From Candidatus Sulfopaludibacter sp. SbA3 (GTDB lineage: Bacteria; Acidobacteriota; Terriglobia; 20CM-2-55-15): a stretch of DNA of 33,491 nucleotides. Shown piece after piece: positions 14,559-28,388 of the stretch. The number at the start of each line of letters is the position of its first letter. Position 1 is the first letter of the stretch. Location: contig CAMBFR010000039.1 of assembly GCA_945865815.1 (NCBI GenBank), positions 1-33,491 of the forward strand. The letters are read 5' to 3'. Made by a program: the position numbers and the translations under genes. Below the pieces are notes generated by a model. It ran no database searches and was not told where the DNA came from. It was given only the letters and a program-made list of their open reading frames with translations.

Positions 14559-17384
14559 ATGTCTTTACAACCCGGAACTAAACTCGGACCGTATGAAATC
14601 CTTGCCCAGATCGGCGCCGGCGGGATGGGAGAAGTCTATAAGGCGGCCGATGCGCGTCTGAACCGCACGGTGGCCGTCAAGATACTTCCTCAGCATTTTT
14701 CGGAGCAGCCGGAAATGAAGCAGCGCTTTGTCCGCGAGGCGCAGACCATTGCCGGCCTGAATCATCCCAACATCTGTACGGTCTACGATGTCGGCCGGCA
14801 GGACGGCATCGACTTCATCGTGATGGAGTACCTCGAAGGCGAAACGCTCGCCCAGCGGCTCGGCCGTGGAGCCCTGCCGTTCGACGATACCCTGAGAGTC
14901 GCCATCGCGATAGCAGATGCGCTGGATAAGGCCCATGGGCAGGGAGTCACGCATCGGGACCTCAAGCCGGGCAACATCATGCTGACGCCTAGCGGAGCCA
15001 AGCTCCTGGATTTTGGACTCGCGAAACTCGCGCACCCCGCGCCCAGCGCCGGGTCGATGACGGCCTCCGGCGTCAACAAGACCGCTCCCGGGACGATCCT
15101 CGGCACGCTGCAGTACATGGCGCCCGAACAGTTGGAAGGCCAGGAGGCGGACGCGCGTACGGACATCTTTGCATTCGGCGCGGTCCTGTACGAGACGTTG
15201 ACCGGACGGAAGGCGTTTGAAGGAAGAAGCCAGGCTCTGCTGATCGCCTCCATTGTGTCTTTCAATCCCGAACCTCCGTCGAAATCGCAGCCCAAAGTGC
15301 CGGCGGCGCTCGACTACCTTGTGAAACGATGTCTGGCAAAGGATCCCGAACAGCGCCTGCAAACGGCGTGCGATCTTGTGGCTCAGCTCCAGTGGATTGC
15401 GGGGGGCGGCGCGGACCTGGCCGCTATGCCTCTTCCAGCCGCGGCTCCGCGGAGGCGGACGGCCACGCCGGCGCGCGCCGCGCTCGCGATCGTTCTGCTG
15501 GTTGTGGCCGCGCTCGCCATACTCGCCTTCCGGTCCTTTCAAAGTCCGCCTGTGGGCGAGGAAACCCGGTTCCTCGTCAGCGTGCCGGATATGCCTGTGC
15601 CCGAAGCGGTCTCGATTTCGCCCGACGGTCGCTGGATCGCCTATTCAGGCCGCGATACCGCATCGACATCCGTATTTGTCCGGCCAATGGGATCGGAAGC
15701 ATCGCAGAAACTGGTCGGAACCGAAGGCGCCGGCCGGCTGTTCTGGTCGCCCGACAGCCGCTGGATTGCGTTCTTTGCCGGCGGCACGCTCAAGCGGGTG
15801 GAGGCGATCGGCGGGCCGCCGCAAAGCATCTGTGAGACGGCGGATCTGCTTGGCGGCGCCTGGAACGCGGAAGGCGTCATTGTTTTCGCTTCGAGCAAAG
15901 GATTACAGCGCGTGCTGGCCGCCGGCGGCGAGCCCACGCCGATCGAGATCGCGGCATCCGGCGAAGCCGGGGACAATGCCGACAGCGCCGGCAGCCCGCC
16001 TCAAAGTGGAAACACACCGCGTGAACCGTTCTTCCTGCCCGATGGACGGCATTTCCTGTACCTTGCGGGTGCCGCAATTTTTGCCGGTGAGCTCGATTCG
16101 AACGAGACGACGCGTTTGGTGACCGCCGAGTCCAACGCGGCGTACGCCGAGCCAGGCTACCTTCTGTTCCACCGCGAAGGCACGCTGTACGCCCAGTCTT
16201 TCGATCCAGACAGTCTGGAGCTCTCGGGAGAAGCCATTCGCATCGCCGATAAGATTCCATACAGTACGACAGGCGCGGCCGCTTTCTCAGCGTCGCAAAC
16301 CGGCGTACTCCTTTTCAGGAACAATCCGCAGCTTCAGGCGGGCGCCGCCGCGACCGGCGCCATTCTGAACGCGCCGTTGGTCTGGGTGGACCGCTCCGGA
16401 ACGAGGATCGAGCAGGCGGCAGCGCCGGCCGGCTGGGCCGGGCTGAATCTTTCTCCGGATGGCAAGTGGACGGCGGTTCACCGTCATGACGGAAACGGCG
16501 GCGACATCTGGAATTTCGAGGCGGGATCGGACACGCCGTCGAGGTTCACCTTCGACGCCACTCAGGACAACTCCATGCCTGTCTGGTCCCCCGATGGGAG
16601 GCGCATTGCGTTCGCCTCCAGACGGAATGGCAAGTGGGGTCTCTACGTGAAGATCGCGGACAACACGCGCGCCGAAGAGCTGGTGATCGAATCGGAACTC
16701 GCCACCATGCCGATGAGCTGGTCGAACGACCGTTTGGTCTACTGGACGAGCGATCCCAAGACGGCCGGCGATGTGTGGAGCGTGGCCCTTAGCCCCGCAG
16801 CCGGCGACAAGAACGCGAGTCCGGTTCTCGAGACACCGGCCGATGAGCGCAACCCTCAGGTTTCGCCCGATGGAAAATGGCTGGCTTACAGTTCCAACGA
16901 GAGCGGCCGAAGCGAAATTTATATCCGGCCTTTTCCGGAAGGTCCGGGGAAAATCCAGGTTTCCGTGAACGGCGGCGTGTTTCCGCGATGGCGTGGCGAC
17001 GGGAGGGAGCTGTACTTCCTGAGTCTCGTATCGCTGGGCGCCATGATGCAGTCTGAAATCCGTGTGGCCGGATCATCCGTGCAGCGGGACGTTCCGCGCA
17101 TGCTGTTCCAGCCGATCAACGTCAACGGCTTTCACTCCGCGGGGCCGTATCATGCCTATGCCGTCTCCGGCAACGGCCAGCGGTTTCTGATCCCGCAGTT
17201 CGCAAACCTTCAGAGCATTCCGGGCGTCGGAGGAGGAGGGGGCGGCGCAACGACGACGGCCGCCATCGCTTCTGTCCTTCCGGCTGTTCTGGCGGACCGG
17301 AACGCGGCCGCATCTTCTTCCGGTACGTCCGCCGCGCCAATCACCGTTGTTTTCAATTGGACCTCGGCGCTGAAAGGGAATTAG
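14559..17384 (+). CDS. Membrane Ser/Thr protein kinase with C-terminal PD40/TolB-like propeller
   Basis: 941 residues. Residues ~12-280 form a complete Hanks kinase domain: Gly loop GAGGMG at 19-24, VAVK with Lys41, Glu60 in helix C, HRDLKPGN with catalytic Asp134, DFG at 151-153 and APE at 188-190. A single membrane span lies at about 305-325, flanked by PRRR on the cytoplasmic side. The remaining ~610 residues are repeated SPDGRWIAYS/SPDSRWIAFF-type blades of a PD40 beta-propeller, placed outside the membrane, and end in ITVVFNWTSALK. The layout suggests a receptor that senses a ligand and phosphorylates cytoplasmic proteins; ligand and targets are unknown. A paralogue follows 2 bases after the stop. 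Confidence 0.93.
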   Translation: MSLQPGTKLGPYEILAQIGAGGMGEVYKAADARLNRTVAVKILPQHFSEQPEMKQRFVREAQTIAGLNHPNICTVYDVGRQDGIDFIVMEYLEGETLAQRLGRGALPFDDTLRVAIAIADALDKAHGQGVTHRDLKPGNIMLTPSGAKLLDFGLAKLAHPAPSAGSMTASGVNKTAPGTILGTLQYMAPEQLEGQEADARTDIFAFGAVLYETLTGRKAFEGRSQALLIASIVSFNPEPPSKSQPKVPAALDYLVKRCLAKDPEQRLQTACDLVAQLQWIAGGGADLAAMPLPAAAPRRRTATPARAALAIVLLVVAALAILAFRSFQSPPVGEETRFLVSVPDMPVPEAVSISPDGRWIAYSGRDTASTSVFVRPMGSEASQKLVGTEGAGRLFWSPDSRWIAFFAGGTLKRVEAIGGPPQSICETADLLGGAWNAEGVIVFASSKGLQRVLAAGGEPTPIEIAASGEAGDNADSAGSPPQSGNTPREPFFLPDGRHFLYLAGAAIFAGELDSNETTRLVTAESNAAYAEPGYLLFHREGTLYAQSFDPDSLELSGEAIRIADKIPYSTTGAAAFSASQTGVLLFRNNPQLQAGAAATGAILNAPLVWVDRSGTRIEQAAAPAGWAGLNLSPDGKWTAVHRHDGNGGDIWNFEAGSDTPSRFTFDATQDNSMPVWSPDGRRIAFASRRNGKWGLYVKIADNTRAEELVIESELATMPMSWSNDRLVYWTSDPKTAGDVWSVALSPAAGDKNASPVLETPADERNPQVSPDGKWLAYSSNESGRSEIYIRPFPEGPGKIQVSVNGGVFPRWRGDGRELYFLSLVSLGAMMQSEIRVAGSSVQRDVPRMLFQPINVNGFHSAGPYHAYAVSGNGQRFLIPQFANLQSIPGVGGGGGGATTTAAIASVLPAVLADRNAAASSSGTSAAPITVVFNWTSALKGN

Positions 17385-17386
17385 TG

Positions 17387-20188
17387 ATGCTTGAATCCGG
17401 TACGAAGCTTGGCCCGTACGAAATTCTTTCGCCGCTGCCCGCGTCGCGCGCTGGTGAAGCATACAAAGCGTCGGACTCCCGGCGGAACCGCTCCGTCGTG
17501 GTCACCCTGCTTCCGCCGCACGTCTCGGAGCGCGCCGAGGCGGTGGAACGGTTCAAACGCGAGGCGCGGACGATCACGTCACTGAGCCATCCAAACATCT
17601 GCGCTCCAGACGACGTGGGCCATGAGAACGGCACGGACTTCTTCGTGACCGATGACGTGGAAGGTGAAACGCTTGCCCAGCGGCTCGCGCGTAGTCCGCT
17701 CGCGGTGGATGAAGCCTTGAAAGTGGCCATTGCCATCGCGGATGCCCTCGACAAGGCGCACCGGCAGGGCGTGACGCATCGCGGCCTGAATCCCTCCAAT
17801 ATCGTGCTCACGCCGGACGGTCCCAAACTCCTGGATTTCGGACTGGGCAGGGCAACGGCCCTTGAGGCGTTATCGGGTCCGGCCGGTTCCGCATCGTCGC
17901 TGCCAACGCGACCAGCAGGCGCGGCGGGCGCGGCTCTGTCCGCCGTTCCCACTTCCGCCGCGCCGTACCTGGCGCCGGAACAGTGGGAAGGAAGAGAAGG
18001 CGACGCCCGCTCCGATGTCTATGCGGTTGGCGCGGTCCTTTATGAAATGGTCGTGGGAAAGCCGGCTTTCGAGGGCAAGAACCAGGCAATATTGATCGCC
18101 GCGATCGCGACGGTCGATCCGGACCCGGTGTCGAAGGCGACACCGGCGGCTCCAGCACTCGACTACGTCGTCGAGCGCTGCCTGATGAAGGATCCCGCCC
18201 GGCGGATGCAGACCGCGTGGGACCTGATGGGTCAGCTTCAGTGGATTGCCGAAACCAGCACGCCGGTTGGCGTCCCCGCACCCCTCGCGGGACACGGGCG
18301 CAAGCAGGACCGGGCCGTCTGGATCGCGCTTGCCGCCGCCTTGCTGGTGGCCGCAATCCTCGCGCCGTACGCCCTTTCGTCCCTCCGGAGTTCGCCCGAA
18401 CCCGAAGAAGTTCGCTTCGTGGTGTCGAATATGGGCAACGGGCCCGTGCCGTTATCGATTTCCCCCAACGGCCGCTGGATCACCAACAGCCGCGGCGCCC
18501 CGAATCCAGGAGTGGACGGTCTTCTGCTTGGCTCTGTCACACCGCAGGTTCTCATCGGCGACAGTGTCATGTACCAGCCTTTCTGGTCGCCGGACAGCCG
18601 CTCGATGGCGTTTTTCGATCGGGCGGGGAAATTGAAGAAGGCGGAGGTCTCCGGCGGACCTTCTCAGAACATTTGCGACACGCCGAACCTCGCCGGCGGG
18701 ACGTGGAACAGCGACGGCGTGATTCTGTTCTCCGGCGGAGGCGTCATCCAACGCGTGCTCGCCGCGGGCGGACAACCGGCGCCGATCACGGAATTGGACA
18801 AGTCCCAAAAGGAAACCGAACACATCGGGCCATACTTCCTGCCGGATGGCCGCCATTATCTGTACACGGCGGTGTCCGCGGAGGGTTCGGAAAGCGCCAT
18901 CTATGCCGGTTCCCTCGATTCAAAGGAGCGGAAGCGTTTACTCGCCGCGGAGTCCAAGGCGTCCTACGCGGCGCCGGGATACCTGCTGTTCAATCGCGGG
19001 GGCACGGTGTTTGCCCAGCCCTTCGATGCCGGCGCCCTGGAGTTGTCCGGTGAAGCCGTCCGAATCGCGGACGGAGTTCCTGCTTTAACTGTCAGCGCCC
19101 AGACGAGCGTGAACCTGAGCCGCACCGCAAGCTTCGCCGTTTCGCAGGCCGGAGTGTTCGTCTATCGCACCGCGGCGAATGCCGCGGCAGCCGCTCCGGG
19201 AACCAATCTCGTGGATCTGTCGCTCGTGTGGTTCGATCGGTCCGGCAGCCGGATTGGAGCACCGGCCGGAACGCCGGGAGGCTACGCCGGCGTCGACCTT
19301 TCTCCGGACGGAAAGCAGGTCGCGCTTCATCGTCACGAAGGCAACGGCGGCGATAGCTGGCTGTTCGACCTGGCTCTTGGCCGGATGCAACGGCTGACCT
19401 TCGATGCCACCCAGGAAAACACGATGCCCGTCTGGTCACCGGATGGAACCCGCATCGCCTTCGGATCCACCCGTAGCGGCAAGCCCGGATTGTATGTGAA
19501 GCTCGCGGATGGAACCGGCGCGGAAGAATTGATCGTCGAGTCGAGTGGCGTCATGCAGCCGATGAGCTGGTCTCCGGACGGAAAACTCCTGGTTTATGTG
19601 GCCGACGCCGGAGGACCCGACGACGTTTTTGCCGTTCCGCTCAGTGGCGACCGCAAACCGATTCCCATCCTGCAAACGCCGTTCAATGAACAACTCCCTC
19701 AGGTCTCTTCGGACGGGAAATGGCTGGCGTATGCCTCTGACGAAACGGGGCGCAACGAAATCTACGTCAAACCGTTTCCGGAGGGTCCCGGCAAATGGCA
19801 GGTGTCCACCGAAGGCGGGCAGTTTCCCAGATGGCGCGGTGACGGCAAGGAACTGTTTTTTCAACTGGCGCCAAACATAATGGCCGCGGAGATCCGCGTG
19901 ATGGGATCGTCGGTTCAGTCCGGCGTACCGCGCGTGCTGTTCGGTATCAACAACCCGAGCCTCCAGGGGTCGGCCCACAGTACGCCCTACCACCGTTATG
20001 ACGTCTCCGCGGACGGTCAGCGGTTCCTCCTGCCTCAACTCGGGGGCGCCGGCGGTCCAAACGTTGCGGGCGGCCTTGCCGCCACCATCGCAGCGCTGGC
20101 GGATCAAAACGGAGCGGGAACAACCGGCGTCGCTGCGGGCGGCGTTTCGGTCGTGCTCAACTGGACGCGGATGATGACGCAGAAGTAG
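17387..20188 (+). CDS. Pseudokinase paralogue: kinase-like domain, membrane span and propeller
   Basis: 933 residues from ATG 17387 (AAGGGA upstream, 2 bases after the previous stop); a TTG at 17357 is in frame but inside the upstream gene. Architecture matches the preceding kinase: kinase-like domain (~10-275), membrane span near 295-315, PD40 propeller, terminal VVLNWTRMM. Key catalytic residues are lost: the Gly loop reads SPLPASRAGEAY, the ATP lysine is Thr40 (VVVTLL), and the HRD motif is HRG with Gly133 and Asn135 (HRGLNPSN). Helix-C Glu59, DFG (150-152) and APE (196-198) remain. The frame is intact for 2.8 kb, so the protein is probably selected for a non-catalytic role, perhaps as partner or regulator of its neighbour. 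Confidence 0.9.
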   Translation: MLESGTKLGPYEILSPLPASRAGEAYKASDSRRNRSVVVTLLPPHVSERAEAVERFKREARTITSLSHPNICAPDDVGHENGTDFFVTDDVEGETLAQRLARSPLAVDEALKVAIAIADALDKAHRQGVTHRGLNPSNIVLTPDGPKLLDFGLGRATALEALSGPAGSASSLPTRPAGAAGAALSAVPTSAAPYLAPEQWEGREGDARSDVYAVGAVLYEMVVGKPAFEGKNQAILIAAIATVDPDPVSKATPAAPALDYVVERCLMKDPARRMQTAWDLMGQLQWIAETSTPVGVPAPLAGHGRKQDRAVWIALAAALLVAAILAPYALSSLRSSPEPEEVRFVVSNMGNGPVPLSISPNGRWITNSRGAPNPGVDGLLLGSVTPQVLIGDSVMYQPFWSPDSRSMAFFDRAGKLKKAEVSGGPSQNICDTPNLAGGTWNSDGVILFSGGGVIQRVLAAGGQPAPITELDKSQKETEHIGPYFLPDGRHYLYTAVSAEGSESAIYAGSLDSKERKRLLAAESKASYAAPGYLLFNRGGTVFAQPFDAGALELSGEAVRIADGVPALTVSAQTSVNLSRTASFAVSQAGVFVYRTAANAAAAAPGTNLVDLSLVWFDRSGSRIGAPAGTPGGYAGVDLSPDGKQVALHRHEGNGGDSWLFDLALGRMQRLTFDATQENTMPVWSPDGTRIAFGSTRSGKPGLYVKLADGTGAEELIVESSGVMQPMSWSPDGKLLVYVADAGGPDDVFAVPLSGDRKPIPILQTPFNEQLPQVSSDGKWLAYASDETGRNEIYVKPFPEGPGKWQVSTEGGQFPRWRGDGKELFFQLAPNIMAAEIRVMGSSVQSGVPRVLFGINNPSLQGSAHSTPYHRYDVSADGQRFLLPQLGGAGGPNVAGGLAATIAALADQNGAGTTGVAAGGVSVVLNWTRMMTQK

Positions 20189-20707: not shown

Positions 20708-23700
20708 CTATGGCAGAGGCCCCCGGATCGCGCGTATCCGATTGTTATAGCTATCGGCAACGAAGATGTTGCCTTCGGAATCCACGGCAAGGGCCTGAGG
20801 AAAATAGAACGACGCCGCAATCGCGGGCCCGTTATCTCCGAAGAACCGCTGATCGAAAGAAGTGCTCGCGATGTTCTGAACCTGTCCCGCAGAACTAATT
20901 CGGATCAGCGTATTTCCGTTCTCGAGAATAAAGAGGTTTCCCGAGCGGTCAAAGGTGAGGTCGGTCGGAGAAAACACATCCGACGCGTGCGTCGTGATGG
21001 TTTCGGTGGACAGCGCTATTTTTCGAATGCGTCCGTTGTTGCGATCACAAATGTAAAGGTTGCCGGCGCCGTCGAGAGCGAGGCCCCAGGGACTGTCGAG
21101 TGCCGCCGCAGCCGCCGGTCCGCCATCGCCTGAGAAGCCGGCCGTTCCCGTGCCGGCGATTGTCGTGACGGCGCCATCCGGGGAAATACGCCGGACGCGA
21201 TGCTCGAATTGATCGGAGAAATACGCGTTGCCGGCGGAGTCGACAGCAAGGCCCGTTGCACTTATGAATCTTGCCGGGGTGGGGAAGCCCGCGATAACGG
21301 CGAGCGTTCCCGTGGCGGCCGAGATCTTGAGGATTTGCGAAGCCGCGAGAAGGTAAATGTTGCCGGCCCCATCGAGAGCGACTTCATTTGGCGCTCCGAT
21401 ACTGACGGAGGTTGCCGGACGATCCCCTTCGAGAACGACAGAGAAGACGCCATTGCCGGCAATCGTGGTCATAACGCCGGTCCGTGCGTCGACACGCCTC
21501 AGGCGATTGTTCGAGCCGTCTCCAATCAGCATATTGCCGCCGGAGTCAAAAGCAACTCCGGACGGCCGGCTCAGTGTTGCGGCGGTCGCCGCCTCGCCAT
21601 CGCCAACCGATCCACCGCCGATTCCGGCAAAAACGGAAATCATGCCTGCTCCGGACACGCGATACACGCGTTTATCCAGGCCATCGGTAATGAAAAGATT
21701 GCCGGCCGCGTCGACGGATACCGAGCCCGCCGTCAAGCTGACCGACGTTGCGGGAACGCTTCCCGTGGCCGGCGCTCTCTGGCCTCCTCCTCCTGCCACG
21801 GTCGTGATGATTCCATCGGTATTGATTTTGCGGATTCGCGTCTCTGAAAGATACAAGTTGCCGTCGGCGTCCATGCTGAGGCCATCTGGAGAGGAAAGGG
21901 CCGCGCTTATCGCTGGAATGTTGCTGCCCGATATTCCAAAGGAGCCGGTACCGGCAATAGTGGTGATGATCCCCGTTCCCGCGGCGATCTTCCGAATGCG
22001 TCCGTTGAACTGGTCTGAAAAAAAGACGTCTCCCGCCGGGCTTATCACAATGCCGGCCGGATTCCATATCTGGGCGGAAGTGGCCGGACCACCATCGCCT
22101 GAAAAGCCGGACTGACCGTTGCCGGCAATGGTCGTAATTATTCCCGTGCTCGCGTCGACCTTGCGGATTCGCCGGTTGCCGGAGTCCGAGATATAAAGGT
22201 TATCGGAACGATCAAAAGCAATACCTGAGGGAGACAGGAGGTAGGCGCTCGAAGCGGGACTGCCGTCACCCAGCCGGTCAAATCGGCCGCCGCCCGCGAA
22301 GGTTGTAATGATTCCGGTGACTCGATCCACTCTGCGCACTCGATTGTTGTTCGCGTCGGTAACGAAGAGATTTCCGGCCGCATCGATCGCCAGCGCGCCC
22401 GGTGTGTCCAGTTCCGCCGCGATCGCCAGGCCGAAGTCCCCGGAAAATCCACGTTGACCGCTGCCTGCCACGGTATTGATGGCGCCGCTGACGGGATTGA
22501 CGCGGCGAATCTGGTGGGCATCTCTGTCGGCAATGTACACGGCGCCGGTGGCGTCAATTGCGGTTGCTTTGGGAGAAACGATGTTCGCGGAGGCCGCCGG
22601 CCCGCCATCGCCCGCAAATGTCGTTCCGCCCGCCACAGTCGTGATGTATCCCACCTGCAACGATGTGAGCGGCTGAGGCTGAACAACCAGCGCGGCCTGG
22701 GCAATGCCGCCGCGGTTCTGAATCGTAACCGTCGCTCTGCCGCTTCCGAGCGCAGGCGCCGTGAACGTAATGGTTTCGGTGCTCTGAACCGCCGCGCCGG
22801 AGATCACCGTGCCGCCAATAATGACGACGCTATCCGTTGAGAAGTTGGTTCCGCGGATTGTAATGCGCTCTCCGCCGCGATTGCTGACGGTTTGCGGGCT
22901 CACGCTCGCAATCTGTGGCGCGCCATAACTGAGTTGCCGTGCCCCGAATGCGCCATCCGCAACCACAACCGTTCCATTGGCTGCCGTTGTGAGGCCGCGT
23001 GGTCTGACGAAGGTGTTCTCCTGCGTCACTGTGACGACGACACTTTCGATACGAACAACCAGTTTCAGGCGGCTCGACTCCGTCACGTAAATGTTCTGAC
23101 TCGAATCCACAAGAACACCGGTAGGACTGTTGAAATAAAAAGGCGCGCCAACTGCTGAAGTAACGCCTCTCTTGAAGTCCTCAATACCGGCGCCCCGTGG
23201 CGCTTCCACGCGAACCGTTTCGACGGTGCCGTTTTCCTGCACCCGCCGCAGTACGCCATTGGCCGTGTCCGCGACGATCAGGGAAATAGGCGGGGGCGGT
23301 TCACCGCGGCGTTCGCGCTCGAGTTGCCGAACGGAGCTCTCGGTCTCTATTGCGATTCCAGTCGGAGACCGAAACTGCGCCGCCGTTGCTCTTCCGTCTG
23401 CAAAGCCGGGCACTCCAGGTGTTCCGGCGATGGTTTCGACGGTCCCCGCAGCCGGATTGATCCGGCGAATGGTGTGGTTACCGGTGTCGACTATCCAGAG
23501 ATTCCCGCGAGGATCCAGCGCAATGCCCTGTGGCGTATTGAACTGAGCTTCCATGAGCGGCCCGTCGCGGCTGCCGGGCGTGCCATTCCCCGCCATCGTC
23601 TCAACGGCTCCGGATGCGCCGGGCCTGACCCGCCGCACGACGTGGTTCGCCGAATCCGCCACGTAAAGACTGCCTTCAGCCTGATTGAAAGCAAGGTACG

Positions 23701-25606
23701 ACGGGTTCCTGAATTGGGATTGAAGCCGCATGTCATTCTTGAGTCCCGGCGATTGCGCGATGCCGGCGTAAATTGCCGGCGCCTGGCGGACGTCCTGAGC
23801 AAGCGAGATCGTATGATCCTGTGACGACGTCAGGTAGAGCCGTTGCGCGAGATCCTGGGCGATGCCGACCGTCCCGAACCCGCCTGTCCCTAATTCGACG
23901 CGCACCACCGTGACCGTTCCAGGCGACACCACTCCGCCCGACGACATCGTCAGGCTCGAGAAGCCCGCAACTTTTCCCTTAATCGAACTATCCGGATTCA
24001 CCTCCGCAATGGCCGTGTTGCTCGACGTGTACGTCACATCGTAGTCATCCCGGCTCTGGCCGCTGCTGTCAATCACCCGGACCCTCGGCCTCAACGTGTT
24101 TCCTTCGTTGATTGCCACCTCTGTCGTTTCCGTGTTCGATGACGGATCCATCAGCGTGATTGCCGCAACGCGCGCGGTGTTTCCCGGATAGAACTGGCGC
24201 CCGCCGCCCGCGGCCATGCGATACAGGAACTGGCTGCCCGTTTCGGCGCCCATCGGGACCACCATGTTGTTCCCGTCGGATTGGTAAAAGCTCAACCGGC
24301 CGCCCGCCGCCGCTGTCTTGTCCGTATTGATGAAGACCAGACGCGTCGAAAAGTTCGTCCCAATCGCAATCTGCGGAAAAATCAGCGTTGCCGCCGAAGA
24401 CAATCGGTTCAAATCCGCAACCGGCAGTGTCGTCATCACCAGATCGTTCCGCGTGTTCACAGTCAGCTTCAACGTAATCGGCGCAACGGCCACGGTGCTC
24501 TGAATCTCCATTACGCCGGTGAAGCCTTCCGTCAAGACCGAGAAAAGGTCGTTGGCATATATCGCGAGGTGATTTCCGCCGGCGAGAGGCCGCGTCTGCA
24601 CCTGCTCGACATTGCCGTTACGGTCCATCAGAGTCAGGGTCAACTGCGCTTCCTGAGTCGACGGATTCGCTATCGCTACGCCGGTCTGTGTTCCCGCGTT
24701 GTCGATGAACACGCGGGACGCCGTCGTCGCAGGCGTTGCCGCCACGCCCGCCTCGCTTACAATCTGGTTGCTCGCTTTCCACTGAAACACGATGCTTCCG
24801 GACGGCGCAGCGCTCCCGGCCGACGGTACCGCCGTCGACCATCCGGACCGGAGAGCCGGCGCATCGAGAACCGCCCGGAACGTTCCGTGTGCCGGAATAT
24901 CGTAGGGAATCTGCGATACGCTGCTGCCCGCGCTTTGCAGCAGAAGCGGCTGGCCGGTGGAACCGTAGAAGCGCACGTCGCCGCGAATCGATTCAGAGTA
25001 GGGATTCATCAGGAGCAGTTCCGTCGTGAAACCGTCTCCCGCTGCAATGTGCGGAAACACCAGCGGGCTGTTTGATGACCCTGCGGGAAGAGTGACTACA
25101 GGCAGGGTCGTGTACAGCGGCTCACCCTGCACATTCCGGGTTTCCCGCAGCGTCACTGCCGCTATCGGCCGCGTGCTCTCGAACGTCAGGCTGCCTCGAA
25201 AATCCGCGCTTTGGGACGGAAACAGATCGCTCACATAACGGGCCGTATGACGATTGGCCCCCAACGTATCGCTGACACGCGCCGTTTCCGCGCCGGCTGC
25301 ATTGCGCAGGATGAAAGCAATGCTCGCCGCTTCCGGACCGTTGTTGGCCAGCGCCAGTCCCGTCTTTGCGCCGGATTGATCCACGAACACTCGTCCCGAA
25401 GCAATCGGCTCGATTGCTCCCACCGCCGCCTCACTGACGATCACGCCACCCGCATTTGTCACTCGAAACAACGCGCTTCCGACAGGCATCCGGTTTCCCG
25501 CTTCCGGTGTATACAATCCGTACCCGACCTGTAAGGGACTCTGGGCAGAGGCGCCGCTCAGCAAGAGCAACATGACGGCCACAAAAGGGAATTTGCGGGA
25601 TTTCAT
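20708..25606 (-). CDS. Giant secreted NHL-repeat protein with Ig-like and TIG domains
   Basis: 1632 residues with a signal peptide (MKSRKFPFVAVMLLLLSGAS, AQ after it). Residues ~25-470 contain duplicated modules with the recurring phrase G/SRVF(V/I)D.(S/A)G..TG.A(L/I)AN. About 500-575 is a BIG2-like Ig domain (TYTSSNTAIAEVNPDS). About 620-870 are NHL repeats (YVADSANHVVRRV, GNLWIVDTGNHTIRRINP). About 895-975 is an IPT/TIG domain (ASVSPQTVSNRGGERITIRG), and ~985-1632 a second NHL run with roughly 56-residue units (GNLFVTDANNNRVRRV, TIAGNGQSGFSGDGGPA). Such propellers bind ligands or partners at the cell surface or outside it; no catalytic motif is seen. No C-terminal anchor or sorting tail is evident. 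No ribosome site is clear before ATG 25606. Confidence 0.9.
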   Translation of the reverse strand: MKSRKFPFVAVMLLLLSGASAQSPLQVGYGLYTPEAGNRMPVGSALFRVTNAGGVIVSEAAVGAIEPIASGRVFVDQSGAKTGLALANNGPEAASIAFILRNAAGAETARVSDTLGANRHTARYVSDLFPSQSADFRGSLTFESTRPIAAVTLRETRNVQGEPLYTTLPVVTLPAGSSNSPLVFPHIAAGDGFTTELLLMNPYSESIRGDVRFYGSTGQPLLLQSAGSSVSQIPYDIPAHGTFRAVLDAPALRSGWSTAVPSAGSAAPSGSIVFQWKASNQIVSEAGVAATPATTASRVFIDNAGTQTGVAIANPSTQEAQLTLTLMDRNGNVEQVQTRPLAGGNHLAIYANDLFSVLTEGFTGVMEIQSTVAVAPITLKLTVNTRNDLVMTTLPVADLNRLSSAATLIFPQIAIGTNFSTRLVFINTDKTAAAGGRLSFYQSDGNNMVVPMGAETGSQFLYRMAAGGGRQFYPGNTARVAAITLMDPSSNTETTEVAINEGNTLRPRVRVIDSSGQSRDDYDVTYTSSNTAIAEVNPDSSIKGKVAGFSSLTMSSGGVVSPGTVTVVRVELGTGGFGTVGIAQDLAQRLYLTSSQDHTISLAQDVRQAPAIYAGIAQSPGLKNDMRLQSQFRNPSYLAFNQAEGSLYVADSANHVVRRVRPGASGAVETMAGNGTPGSRDGPLMEAQFNTPQGIALDPRGNLWIVDTGNHTIRRINPAAGTVETIAGTPGVPGFADGRATAAQFRSPTGIAIETESSVRQLERERRGEPPPPISLIVADTANGVLRRVQENGTVETVRVEAPRGAGIEDFKRGVTSAVGAPFYFNSPTGVLVDSSQNIYVTESSRLKLVVRIESVVVTVTQENTFVRPRGLTTAANGTVVVADGAFGARQLSYGAPQIASVSPQTVSNRGGERITIRGTNFSTDSVVIIGGTVISGAAVQSTETITFTAPALGSGRATVTIQNRGGIAQAALVVQPQPLTSLQVGYITTVAGGTTFAGDGGPAASANIVSPKATAIDATGAVYIADRDAHQIRRVNPVSGAINTVAGSGQRGFSGDFGLAIAAELDTPGALAIDAAGNLFVTDANNNRVRRVDRVTGIITTFAGGGRFDRLGDGSPASSAYLLSPSGIAFDRSDNLYISDSGNRRIRKVDASTGIITTIAGNGQSGFSGDGGPATSAQIWNPAGIVISPAGDVFFSDQFNGRIRKIAAGTGIITTIAGTGSFGISGSNIPAISAALSSPDGLSMDADGNLYLSETRIRKINTDGIITTVAGGGGQRAPATGSVPATSVSLTAGSVSVDAAGNLFITDGLDKRVYRVSGAGMISVFAGIGGGSVGDGEAATAATLSRPSGVAFDSGGNMLIGDGSNNRLRRVDARTGVMTTIAGNGVFSVVLEGDRPATSVSIGAPNEVALDGAGNIYLLAASQILKISAATGTLAVIAGFPTPARFISATGLAVDSAGNAYFSDQFEHRVRRISPDGAVTTIAGTGTAGFSGDGGPAAAAALDSPWGLALDGAGNLYICDRNNGRIRKIALSTETITTHASDVFSPTDLTFDRSGNLFILENGNTLIRISSAGQVQNIASTSFDQRFFGDNGPAIAASFYFPQALAVDSEGNIFVADSYNNRIRAIRGPLP

Positions 25607-25623: not shown

Positions 25624-27141
25624 CTACGCAGATGGCTGGCCTCGCGCAACCGCGCTCTCGCGAATGGCGGCTTCAATAGCCAAGAGCTCGTCATCTCGTA
25701 ATTCTGCGAACTGCTCCCGTCTGTTGCCGGCAAGGCGTCCCTTATTTTGCAGAATCAGTTTGACAAGCAAAGCCGCGCGGCGATCAGGCATATCGACAAT
25801 CTCCGCCGTCTTTCGCAGCGCTTCATCAAAAGCTTTCAGGAAGCCGATCTCTTCACCGATATCCTTTCGAATCGTCTCGGCCACGCAGCTGTAGAGGTAT
25901 TCAGCAAACCGAGTGGCATCCCAGAACCGATAGAGACGTGCCGTGTCATTCAAGACTGTCATACGGCCTTCGCGATCCAATTGATACGTGATAAACGGCA
26001 TGATGGCCGAAGAGAAGGTATTCAGAACTCGATCGTACTCTCGTCGTTCCCTCAGCATCACGGCCGAAACCGGGAATAGCAGTCCACCCGGCGCGAACTT
26101 TGTGCTCGCGAGCATATGGTGAATCAGAAATCGATGAATGCGGCCGTTTCCATCTTCGAACGGATGATTGAAGACGAACCCGAAGGAAGCCGCCGCCGCC
26201 GCGAACACCGGGTCTATGGCCGATTGCTTGAGCCTGAAGACCATTTGCATCCACCCTTCCATTAACGAAGCAACATGCTCAGGCTTCGGACCGGCGTAAT
26301 ACACGTGCTCGGAAAAATCGCTCTTTGTCCCAGAGACGTAGTTCTGCCCCGTTCTCCAGCCGGCCTGCCCATAGCGCGGATCAACAATCGCGTTTTGAAG
26401 GCGGACGAATTCCGCAATATCGAGAGGATTGAAGGACTCCGCGTTGGCCAAAGCGGCAACAAATCGTTCGGAGCGGCCTCCGCTCGGCGCTTCACCTTCG
26501 ATGGCGTATGACGATTTTGTCTCCTGCGTATAGAGGTAGTTCACCGCTCTGGCCATGATCGCCGGATCGATTCCCTCAACGAGTGCTTTTGCTTCTCGAT
26601 CCAGCCGCGAAGCGCTTGCGGTTTTTAGAGCTTCCGTCCGGCGGATCAAGGGAGAGTATTTTGCGGTGCCCAGGAGATTGTTGTTTATTCGTTGACGACG
26701 AACGCGGTTTCCCGTTGCGGTGATATGCAGGTCAGGATTCAGCAGGTCAATATATCCAGCAGGTGGAACATCGGGTACATCCAGGCTTGTTTCCATTAAC
26801 AGTTCGTACAAATACCAGGCCCGCCGGACAAAGACACCAGTAGGCTCAGATTGGACCCATTTCTCAATGTCGTTTTTGTCGATTGCGTGAAACAAGGCAT
26901 CAACGACGCGGAGATCGATGGGTTCGTATCTCATCGCGAATTTTAGATGTCCCAGTAGATCGGCCGGAGCGTAGCTCCGCGGATACTGCTCCAAAACCAG
27001 CCCGTTTTCGACCTTGGTTCGCCGAGAACCTGTAATTTCGGATCGGACGGCAGGCGGGGGCACCTCTAAGCGGAGTTCCTGGATCAGTCGCGCGAAACCA
27101 ATCAAAAATGGAGATTTTGAATCGAAATTGTTATCAGTCAC
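25624..27141 (-). CDS. Fic-domain protein with internal inhibitory motif (class II)
   Basis: 505 residues, GTG start at 27141. The Fic core motif HPFEDGNGRIHR at 326-337 has the catalytic His326 and the metal- and phosphate-binding Asp330, Asn332, Arg334 and Arg337, so it should transfer AMP (or another nucleotide-derived group) to protein hydroxyls. Upstream, S211-YAI-E215-G216 fits the (S/T)xxxE(G/N) inhibitory helix, which puts it in class II Fic proteins that hold the enzyme in check. Residues ~1-200 and ~340-505 are extra domains of unknown role; the C-terminal part is helical. No antitoxin partner gene is needed in this class. The gene stands between the NHL gene and the polyamine genes, all leftward. 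Confidence 0.88.
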   Translation of the reverse strand: MTDNNFDSKSPFLIGFARLIQELRLEVPPPAVRSEITGSRRTKVENGLVLEQYPRSYAPADLLGHLKFAMRYEPIDLRVVDALFHAIDKNDIEKWVQSEPTGVFVRRAWYLYELLMETSLDVPDVPPAGYIDLLNPDLHITATGNRVRRQRINNNLLGTAKYSPLIRRTEALKTASASRLDREAKALVEGIDPAIMARAVNYLYTQETKSSYAIEGEAPSGGRSERFVAALANAESFNPLDIAEFVRLQNAIVDPRYGQAGWRTGQNYVSGTKSDFSEHVYYAGPKPEHVASLMEGWMQMVFRLKQSAIDPVFAAAAASFGFVFNHPFEDGNGRIHRFLIHHMLASTKFAPGGLLFPVSAVMLRERREYDRVLNTFSSAIMPFITYQLDREGRMTVLNDTARLYRFWDATRFAEYLYSCVAETIRKDIGEEIGFLKAFDEALRKTAEIVDMPDRRAALLVKLILQNKGRLAGNRREQFAELRDDELLAIEAAIRESAVARGQPSA

Positions 27142-27353: not shown

Positions 27354-28388
27354 TTAGACCGGTTCCTGCTGCGTGGCGCAATGAAGCGTTCCCAATCCCC
27401 ATACCAGATCGCCGCAATGAATCCCGGCCACCTGACGCTCGGGAAAAAACTCGGCGATCGTACCCAACGCCCGTCTGTCTTTGGAGTCATTGAACGTGGG
27501 CACGATCACGACTTCGTTTGCAATATAGAAATTGGCGTAACTGGCGGGTAATCGCTGGTTGTTGAAGACCACAGGTTCCGGCATAGGCAGGCGGACCACA
27601 TCGATTCCGGCGCCTTCCAGGCGTTCGCGGTTTTCTTCGAGAGCCGCGTAGTTTTCGTCTTTGCTGTTTTTCTCCTCGCACAGCAGAACCACTCCCGGCG
27701 CGATGAATCGAGCCACGTCGTCGATGTGCCCGTGCGTATCGTCGCCGGCGATGCCGCGTCCCAGCCAGATGACCCGCCTCGCTCCCAGCGCCTCCCACAG
27801 AATCCTTTCGATATCGGCGCGGCCGAGATCCGGGTTGCGAGCCTGAACGCCGGAGAGCAGGCATTCCTCCGTCGCGATGAGATTTCCGGTTCCGTCCACG
27901 TCGAGGGCTCCGCCTTCCATGACGACGTCCTCGCCGTTTGCCGTGGCGGCATATTCCTTCACGCCGGCGATTGTTGCGATTCGGCTCGCAACTCGCGCGT
28001 CACGTTTGTGGTTGGGATACTTGGCCCAGGCATTGAATTTCCAGCGCGTGGCAATTTTATCGCCCTGCTTATTCGTGACGAAGATCGGCCCCGAGTCGCG
28101 GACCCATGACCGGTCGGTCGGTATCCGGTAAAAATCGATTCTCTCTAAACTCGCTCCCGCCTTCTTCAGCACGGCGCGCGCCCGCTTTTCTTCGAGAGCG
28201 TTTTCAACGAGGATCGCCACGCGTTCGTGCCGGCTGAGCACGCGAACCATTTCTCCATAGACCCATGGGATGGGCGTGAATTTCCCCGGCCAGTCGGTTC
28301 GTTCATGGGGCCAGGCGAGCCAGGTGGCGCGATGCAGCGCCCATTCGGCGGGCATTGCAAAGCCGTCGAGCCCGGGGGCTCGGGTCAT
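27354..28388 (-). CDS. aguA: Agmatine deiminase / Porphyromonas-type peptidylarginine deiminase family
   Basis: 344 residues of the guanidino-group-modifying fold. Visible are the N-terminal PAEWALHRATWLAWPHERTD, the substrate loop DRSWVRDSGPIFV, MEGGALDVDG with the metal/acidic site, HGHIDDVARF with the catalytic His-Asp and the C-terminal LHCATQQEPV with nucleophile Cys337. The enzyme turns agmatine into N-carbamoylputrescine plus ammonia. The start overlaps the stop of the amidase gene by four bases (ATGA), so the two are translated together and form the agmatine-to-putrescine route. The loop before Cys reads GLGT rather than the usual GGGN/GGGG-type, a minor change. Confidence 0.9.
   Translation of the reverse strand: MTRAPGLDGFAMPAEWALHRATWLAWPHERTDWPGKFTPIPWVYGEMVRVLSRHERVAILVENALEEKRARAVLKKAGASLERIDFYRIPTDRSWVRDSGPIFVTNKQGDKIATRWKFNAWAKYPNHKRDARVASRIATIAGVKEYAATANGEDVVMEGGALDVDGTGNLIATEECLLSGVQARNPDLGRADIERILWEALGARRVIWLGRGIAGDDTHGHIDDVARFIAPGVVLLCEEKNSKDENYAALEENRERLEGAGIDVVRLPMPEPVVFNNQRLPASYANFYIANEVVIVPTFNDSKDRRALGTIAEFFPERQVAGIHCGDLVWGLGTLHCATQQEPV

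Follow-up and report, generated by a model that had tools for sequence, protein, structure and literature searches.

A putative transmembrane pseudokinase-propeller receptor encoded next to its canonical kinase twin in an acidobacterium

Bacterial Ser/Thr pseudokinases are largely unstudied. A 2025 review described seven pseudokinase-rich bacterial families, which have lost either all three motifs or the ATP- and metal-binding motifs; known bacterial pseudokinases scaffold other partners, in an EssB/YukC- or MviN-like manner, and SelO and SidJ are precedents of atypical catalysis (PMC12599244). The PknB-type receptor kinases (PknA, PknB, StkP and PknE) have an N-terminal cytoplasmic kinase domain, a single transmembrane (TM) segment and a C-terminal extracytoplasmic sensor domain. 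Crystals of the PknB mutants L33D and L33E were obtained in work on dimerisation and substrate binding, and the Leu of MviN equivalent to PknB Leu33 has been described as crucial for the back-to-back dimer.

We analysed a window of 33,491 nucleotides from Candidatus Sulfopaludibacter sp. SbA3, whose genome is 4.3 Mb in size. This window contains a gene, P0001, with a degenerate kinase domain. The features of P0001 and of its upstream paralogue, P0002, are listed below, with the basis of each in parentheses.

14559 to 17384, plus strand: upstream canonical kinase-TM-PD40 paralogue P0002, 941 aa, with K41, HRDLKPGN and DFG intact (ORF calls, Pfam, alignment)
17385 to 17386, plus strand: 2-nt spacer from the P0002 stop to the P0001 ATG, with AAAGGGA upstream (sequence)
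17387 to 20188, plus strand: pseudokinase-TM-PD40 propeller gene P0001, 933 aa (ORF calls, Pfam; AlphaFold2 mean pLDDT 81.7)
17438 to 17455, plus strand: degenerate Gly loop PASRAG, canonically GAGGMG (codon check, alignment)
17483 to 17485, plus strand: Arg33 where PknB has Leu33, the Leu of the back-to-back dimer (alignment, codon check)
17504 to 17506, plus strand: Thr40 replacing the beta3 ATP lysine (codon check, alignment)
17777 to 17800, plus strand: catalytic loop HRGLNPSN, with the HRD Asp changed to Gly133, the Lys to Asn135, and Asn138 kept (codon check, alignment)
17834 to 17842, plus strand: DFG, kept (codon check)
17843 to 17980, plus strand: activation segment to APE, rich in Ala, Ser and Thr, with residues 162-183 of low confidence in the model (alignment, model)
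18311 to 18385, plus strand: transmembrane helix, aa 309-333 (AlphaFold2 model, sequence)
18410 to 20041, plus strand: PD40/TolB-like beta-propeller region, aa 342-885, predicted to be periplasmic (Pfam, model, Foldseek)
20042 to 20185, plus strand: C-terminal tail with GGxGGPNxAGG...ALADQ...VVLNWTR; the orthologue P0005 shares part of it (56% over the tail)

The frame of P0001 is open throughout, from ATG to TAG, as the original prediction had stated. A TTG located 30 nt 5' of this ATG would give a longer alternative start, but it overlaps P0002. The Pkinase domain (PF00069) was matched at 2e-25 in P0001, compared with 3e-49 in P0002, and the kinase fold scored 90.1 bits against a cut-off of 31.7; for PD40 the Pfam match was 9e-28, and the PD40/TolB-like propeller scored 96.1 bits against a cut-off of 20.9. 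The AlphaFold2 model, based on an alignment of 34 relatives, displayed a bilobal and ordered kinase domain (10-residue pLDDT means of at least 83 outside the loop region at 151-190), a helix at 309-333 and a beta-rich propeller region; its pTM was 0.47, at which the inter-domain arrangement is unreliable. Foldseek matched the kinase domain to PknA/PknB and the propeller to TolB chains. The kinase fold is therefore intact as far as this prediction goes, and Pfam and the model agree that the predicted succession of kinase domain, membrane span and PD40 propeller has been retained.

P0001 resembles the PknB-type receptor kinases in its kinase fold, for which they were the best Foldseek and phmmer matches, and in its layout across the membrane. 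It differs from them by having a propeller instead of PASTA repeats, by the loss of the catalytic Lys and Asp, and by the replacement of Leu33; against the PknB_PASTA_kin equivalog (NF033483) it scored 185 bits, with a cut-off of 450. P0001 has in common with ActPs3 (MviN of Mycobacterium) that both are bacterial Ser/Thr pseudokinases linked to a membrane protein (PMC12599244). In MviN, however, all three motifs are lost, DFG among them, and the Leu/Asp dimer residues are kept, whereas P0001 has kept DFG and lost the Leu. The DLHK, DYD and CP1 families are also bacterial Ser/Thr pseudokinases. The DYD family is membrane-associated and has a changed beta3 Lys, as in P0001, while in DLHK the pattern of P0001 is reversed, with the HRD Asp kept and DFG lost. 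When compared by description, ActPs1-3, GLW, CP1, DYD and DLHK all have a divergent DFG, which P0001 does not (PMC12599244). P0001 thus fits neither group of the review, since it has lost residues of the ATP and catalytic motifs and kept DFG. None of the seven families is described as having its architecture or its pattern of losses: they are not propeller receptors, no grouping combines the loss of Lys and the HRD Asp with a kept DFG, and the review (PMC12599244) does not mention propeller, PD40 or Acidobacteria. The same architecture is found in the canonical kinase-PD40 paralogues of Acidobacteriota, which show about 40-55% identity and often lie in tandem, but these keep K, D and D.

The codons confirmed the predicted changes of the ATP lysine to Thr40, of the catalytic Asp to Gly133 and of Lys135 to Asn, as well as the retention of alphaC Glu59, DFG and APE; Asn138, the second Mg ligand, is also kept and had been overlooked. 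The Gly loop was predicted to be lost. This held in that PASRAG replaces GAGGMG, but the third Gly of GxGxxG (G23) is still present. Further conserved sites were changed at A38V, at the hinge (E89D) and in the activation segment (G186A, T191A and M195L). P0001 therefore lacks the beta3 Lys, HRD Asp and intact Gly loop of an active Hanks-type kinase (T40, G133 and PASRAG), while it has the DFG Asp. By sequence, with at least one canonical catalytic residue lost and the fold retained, it is a bacterial Ser/Thr pseudokinase, and we infer that it is unable to carry out normal phosphotransfer.

To place these changes, we used 181 distinct canonical kinase domains from Acidobacteriota and neighbours. 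Asn was found at the HRDxK Lys in none of the 181, and loss of K or D was absent from the near-full domains surveyed before filtering, with the exception of P0001, its orthologue in the genome G757, the sister pseudokinase P0003 and a partial sister (see below). The substitutions in P0001 are therefore not due to chance. In its own genome there are 25 PF00069 matches, and all other full-length kinase-PD40 genes are canonical. The 'partial' kinases without an N-lobe that turned up in the survey were canonical ones with inserts, or were cut by contig ends or frameshifts, and one pseudokinase candidate (L119) proved to be the start of a kinase fused to a different frame. At 54 columns the canonical domains, in which K, D and D were required, were at least 95% conserved, and P0001 departs from them at 15. 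All 15 fall within the 24 columns of the Gly loop, beta3, hinge, catalytic loop, DFG and activation segment, versus 0 of the 30 others (p=1.5e-7). The G757 orthologue changes 12/23 of the functional columns versus 2/30 others (p=3e-4), and P0003 changes 9/23 versus 3/30. These p values are somewhat generous because the functional columns, although chosen from general kinase knowledge, were defined after the first list of changes had been viewed. As judged from the alignment, this pattern of losses is the one expected of a protein that keeps its fold but acts non-catalytically.

A search seeded with P0003 led to G757, an acidobacterial genome of another class than that of the window. Its contig C49 carries orthologues of P0002 and P0001, likewise in this order and separated by 12 nt. 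The canonical orthologues are 75% identical in the kinase domain and 68% in the propeller, and the pseudokinase orthologues (P0001 and P0005) are 60% and 58.5% identical, respectively. P0005 has IGAQDD at the Gly loop, HAGLNPAT and DFG, and it keeps the beta3 Lys (VALK), so that the loss of this Lys is not a conserved hallmark. In both proteins the HRD Asp is replaced by Gly, the HRDxK Lys by Asn and the hinge Met by Thr, and both have PTxAAPYLAPEQ leading into APE; P0005 has Thr instead of Asn138 and lacks the HRD Arg. In these two sequences, the conserved hallmarks are HxGLNP and a broken Gly loop.

Cassettes of the P0002-P0001 type are known from these two genomes only. No orthologue of P0001 was found in 10 other genomes of the family, and no further copy was found in 399 genomes of the window's class, 396 relatives of G757, 193 searched genomes of the class of G757 or, with P0003 as the query, a draw of 396 genomes from the phylum. 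A scan of genome contigs with peptide patterns of P0001 alone gave no match because these patterns are lineage-specific; a scan with the propeller alignment gave 80 loci. With such a sparse distribution, both transfer and repeated loss are possible. When the genes annotated in the window were compared with the ORFs of G757, by inspection rather than by a systematic synteny analysis, the two cassettes had no recognisable neighbour in common. In the window, an NHL/TIG beta-propeller protein of 1632 aa (20708-25606, minus strand) converges on P0001. It is followed by a Fic/DOC-domain protein of 505 aa (25624-27141, minus strand), which adjoins a gene of the peptidyl-arginine deiminase family (27354-28388).

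Next, selection was examined for the kinase and propeller halves separately; a dN/dS near 1 across the kinase domain had been set beforehand as the sign of a decaying gene. A GY94-type branch model (own code, F3x4) was applied to 8 sequences with orthologues included, after a paralogue-only model had been dropped as too saturated. Synonymous sites were near saturation (4-fold identity of 0.44 versus 0.37 expected by composition), and the omega values are therefore approximate; that of the short pseudokinase stem is not interpretable. For the kinase half, omega was 0.064 in canonical genes, 0.146 in the pseudokinase lineage and 0.157 in the sister pseudokinase (2dlnL 13.2, 2 df); for the propeller half, the values were 0.078, 0.092 and 0.047 (2dlnL 2.1). 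Thus, the kinase omega of the pseudokinase lineage was about 2.3 times that of canonical relatives, and the propeller was unchanged. On this lineage omega=1 was rejected for the kinase (2dlnL 131.6) and for the propeller (2dlnL 267.3). Both halves of P0001 are under purifying selection, and its kinase half is less constrained than in canonical relatives. In fixed-topology protein trees without the G757 orthologue, the kinase branch of P0001 was 3.5 times longer than that of P0002 (0.626 versus 0.181), whereas the propeller branches were 0.355 and 0.413. The acceleration is therefore confined to the kinase half. The 4-fold divergence between the pseudokinase orthologues was about 1.2 substitutions per site. 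Neutral simulation over 0.4-0.7 substitutions per site gave about 10-11 stops and 26-43% identity, compared with no stop in the P0001 frame and an amino acid identity of about 60% between the orthologues (under 45% if neutral).

Pseudokinases were also found in a related array. In the Terriglobia MAG 3_4_m_bin7, locus L083 carries three consecutive kinase-PD40 genes: a canonical one, the pseudokinase P0003 (4111-6906) and another canonical one, which overlaps P0003 by 4 nt. P0003 has LGAANGSE, VALR, Gln for the alphaC Glu, and HRDLNPTS; a second, partial pseudokinase with HRDLHPKS lies at L082:1-2536 of the same MAG. The propeller tree joined these two to the canonical L084 gene with a support of 100. 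A single origin with P0001 was rejected by the propeller tree (AU p=6e-9) but not by the kinase tree (p=0.69), both built without the G757 pseudokinase. An independent origin of the sister-array pseudokinases is therefore likely but not proven. Both lines have Asn (or His) at the HRDxK Lys and Thr (or Ser) at the hinge Met.

P0001 and P0002 are about 55% identical, with the same order of kinase, TM helix and PD40 propeller, and the 2-nt spacer suggests that their translation is probably coupled. Tandem adjacency was considered as evidence of partnership and set aside as weak: tandem kinase-PD40 arrays are common, accounting for roughly 70 of the 100 ORFs counted in public loci, so that adjacency by itself proves nothing, and it is the conservation of the pair and of its order that carries the argument. 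One array, at L152:2197-13287, has four successive kinase-PD40 genes, all canonical. A further clue came from the PknB Leu33 position, numbered by counting back from K40. It is Leu in P0002 (Leu34) and in 170 of the 181 canonical domains, with no Arg among the residues listed, but Arg in P0001, Glu in P0003 and Val in P0005. Judging from these residues, a contact between P0001 and its twin, if any, is probably not of the symmetric PknB back-to-back mode; the change could also point to a reduced rather than a closer contact with the twin.

A selected non-catalytic role for P0001 is well supported. Decay of a duplicate, which could account for the accelerated kinase half and the restricted distribution, is hardly tenable: within the limits of the codon model it is refuted by the rejection of omega=1 in both halves, and a conserved pseudokinase orthologue, a frame open despite near-saturated synonymous divergence and the absence of changes at structural sites, as opposed to those for catalysis, ATP binding and activation, all speak against it, in line with the original prediction. 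Altered nucleotide transfer or a relocated lysine, making use of the retained DFG Asp and Asn138, has its precedents in SelO and SidJ, and the beta3 Lys of the orthologue would suit it. We regard such atypical catalysis as very unlikely, since HRD Asp, HRDxK Lys and Gly loop have gone together in P0001, and no common alternative active site is apparent because the orthologue has lost Asn138 and the HRD Arg.

For the role itself, we consider the chances about even for the following reading: a kinase-TM-propeller gene was duplicated in tandem, the two copies are passed on together as a cassette, and P0001, a TM pseudokinase receptor maintained by selection, acts on its canonical twin non-catalytically. 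Its propeller would face the periplasm and bind a ligand or partner like that of the twin, and its cytoplasmic domain would serve the adjacent active kinase as a regulatory partner, docking platform or phospho-acceptor, presumably through a contact other than the ordinary symmetric dimer. The ordered pair in G757, the selection, the concentration of losses at functional columns, the intact fold, the sister-array parallel and the Leu33 change count for this explanation. Against it count the commonness of arrays, the occurrence in two genomes only, the ambiguity of the dimer residue and the relaxation of the kinase half, which would also suit a folded anchor. Indeed, the propeller, as a periplasmic binding or decoy receptor, may be the main target of selection, with the kinase domain remaining just as a folded anchor in the cytoplasm, needed for stability or membrane insertion, and both the omega values and the branch lengths of the two halves point this way. 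This account is rather unlikely: an omega of 0.146 is still strong constraint, and a bare anchor would not need the derived HxGLNP, hinge Thr and PTxAAPYLAPEQ common to the orthologues. That P0001 binds other cytoplasmic proteins and leaves the adjacent kinase unaffected is unlikely, even though known bacterial pseudokinases work in this way (PMC12599244) and the Leu33 change speaks against standard pairing, as the twin is the sole co-inherited gene seen and no neighbour shared with the G757 cassette was recognised. Partnership with the adjacent active kinase is thus the best mechanism for P0001, albeit unproven.

More tentatively, the locus may represent a modular receptor pair, a bacterial counterpart of kinase/pseudokinase receptors such as HER2-HER3, in which an active kinase-propeller protein is controlled at the membrane by a dedicated pseudokinase-propeller protein of the same cassette. 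Such pairs would have evolved at least twice in acidobacterial tandem arrays, and on each occasion the HRDxK lysine would have been lost and the residue at PknB Leu33 changed. With P0001 beside an active twin, an orthologous pair and a likely independent parallel, regulation of a neighbouring kinase by a pseudokinase becomes a testable question.

Two other proteins of the same genome have kinase-like regions. One, of 1679 aa (L056:473-5512, minus strand, contig C37), has a degenerate kinase domain with HGRIRPSNL and without DFG, together with AAA_16, TPR and a sigma-54 interaction domain; it is possibly a pseudokinase-gated sigma-54 activator. The other, a 705-aa ORF (L057, minus strand, contig C18) with a weak kinase match, has HGDLQHGN and DYD in place of HRD and DFG and is a member of an atypical kinase family.
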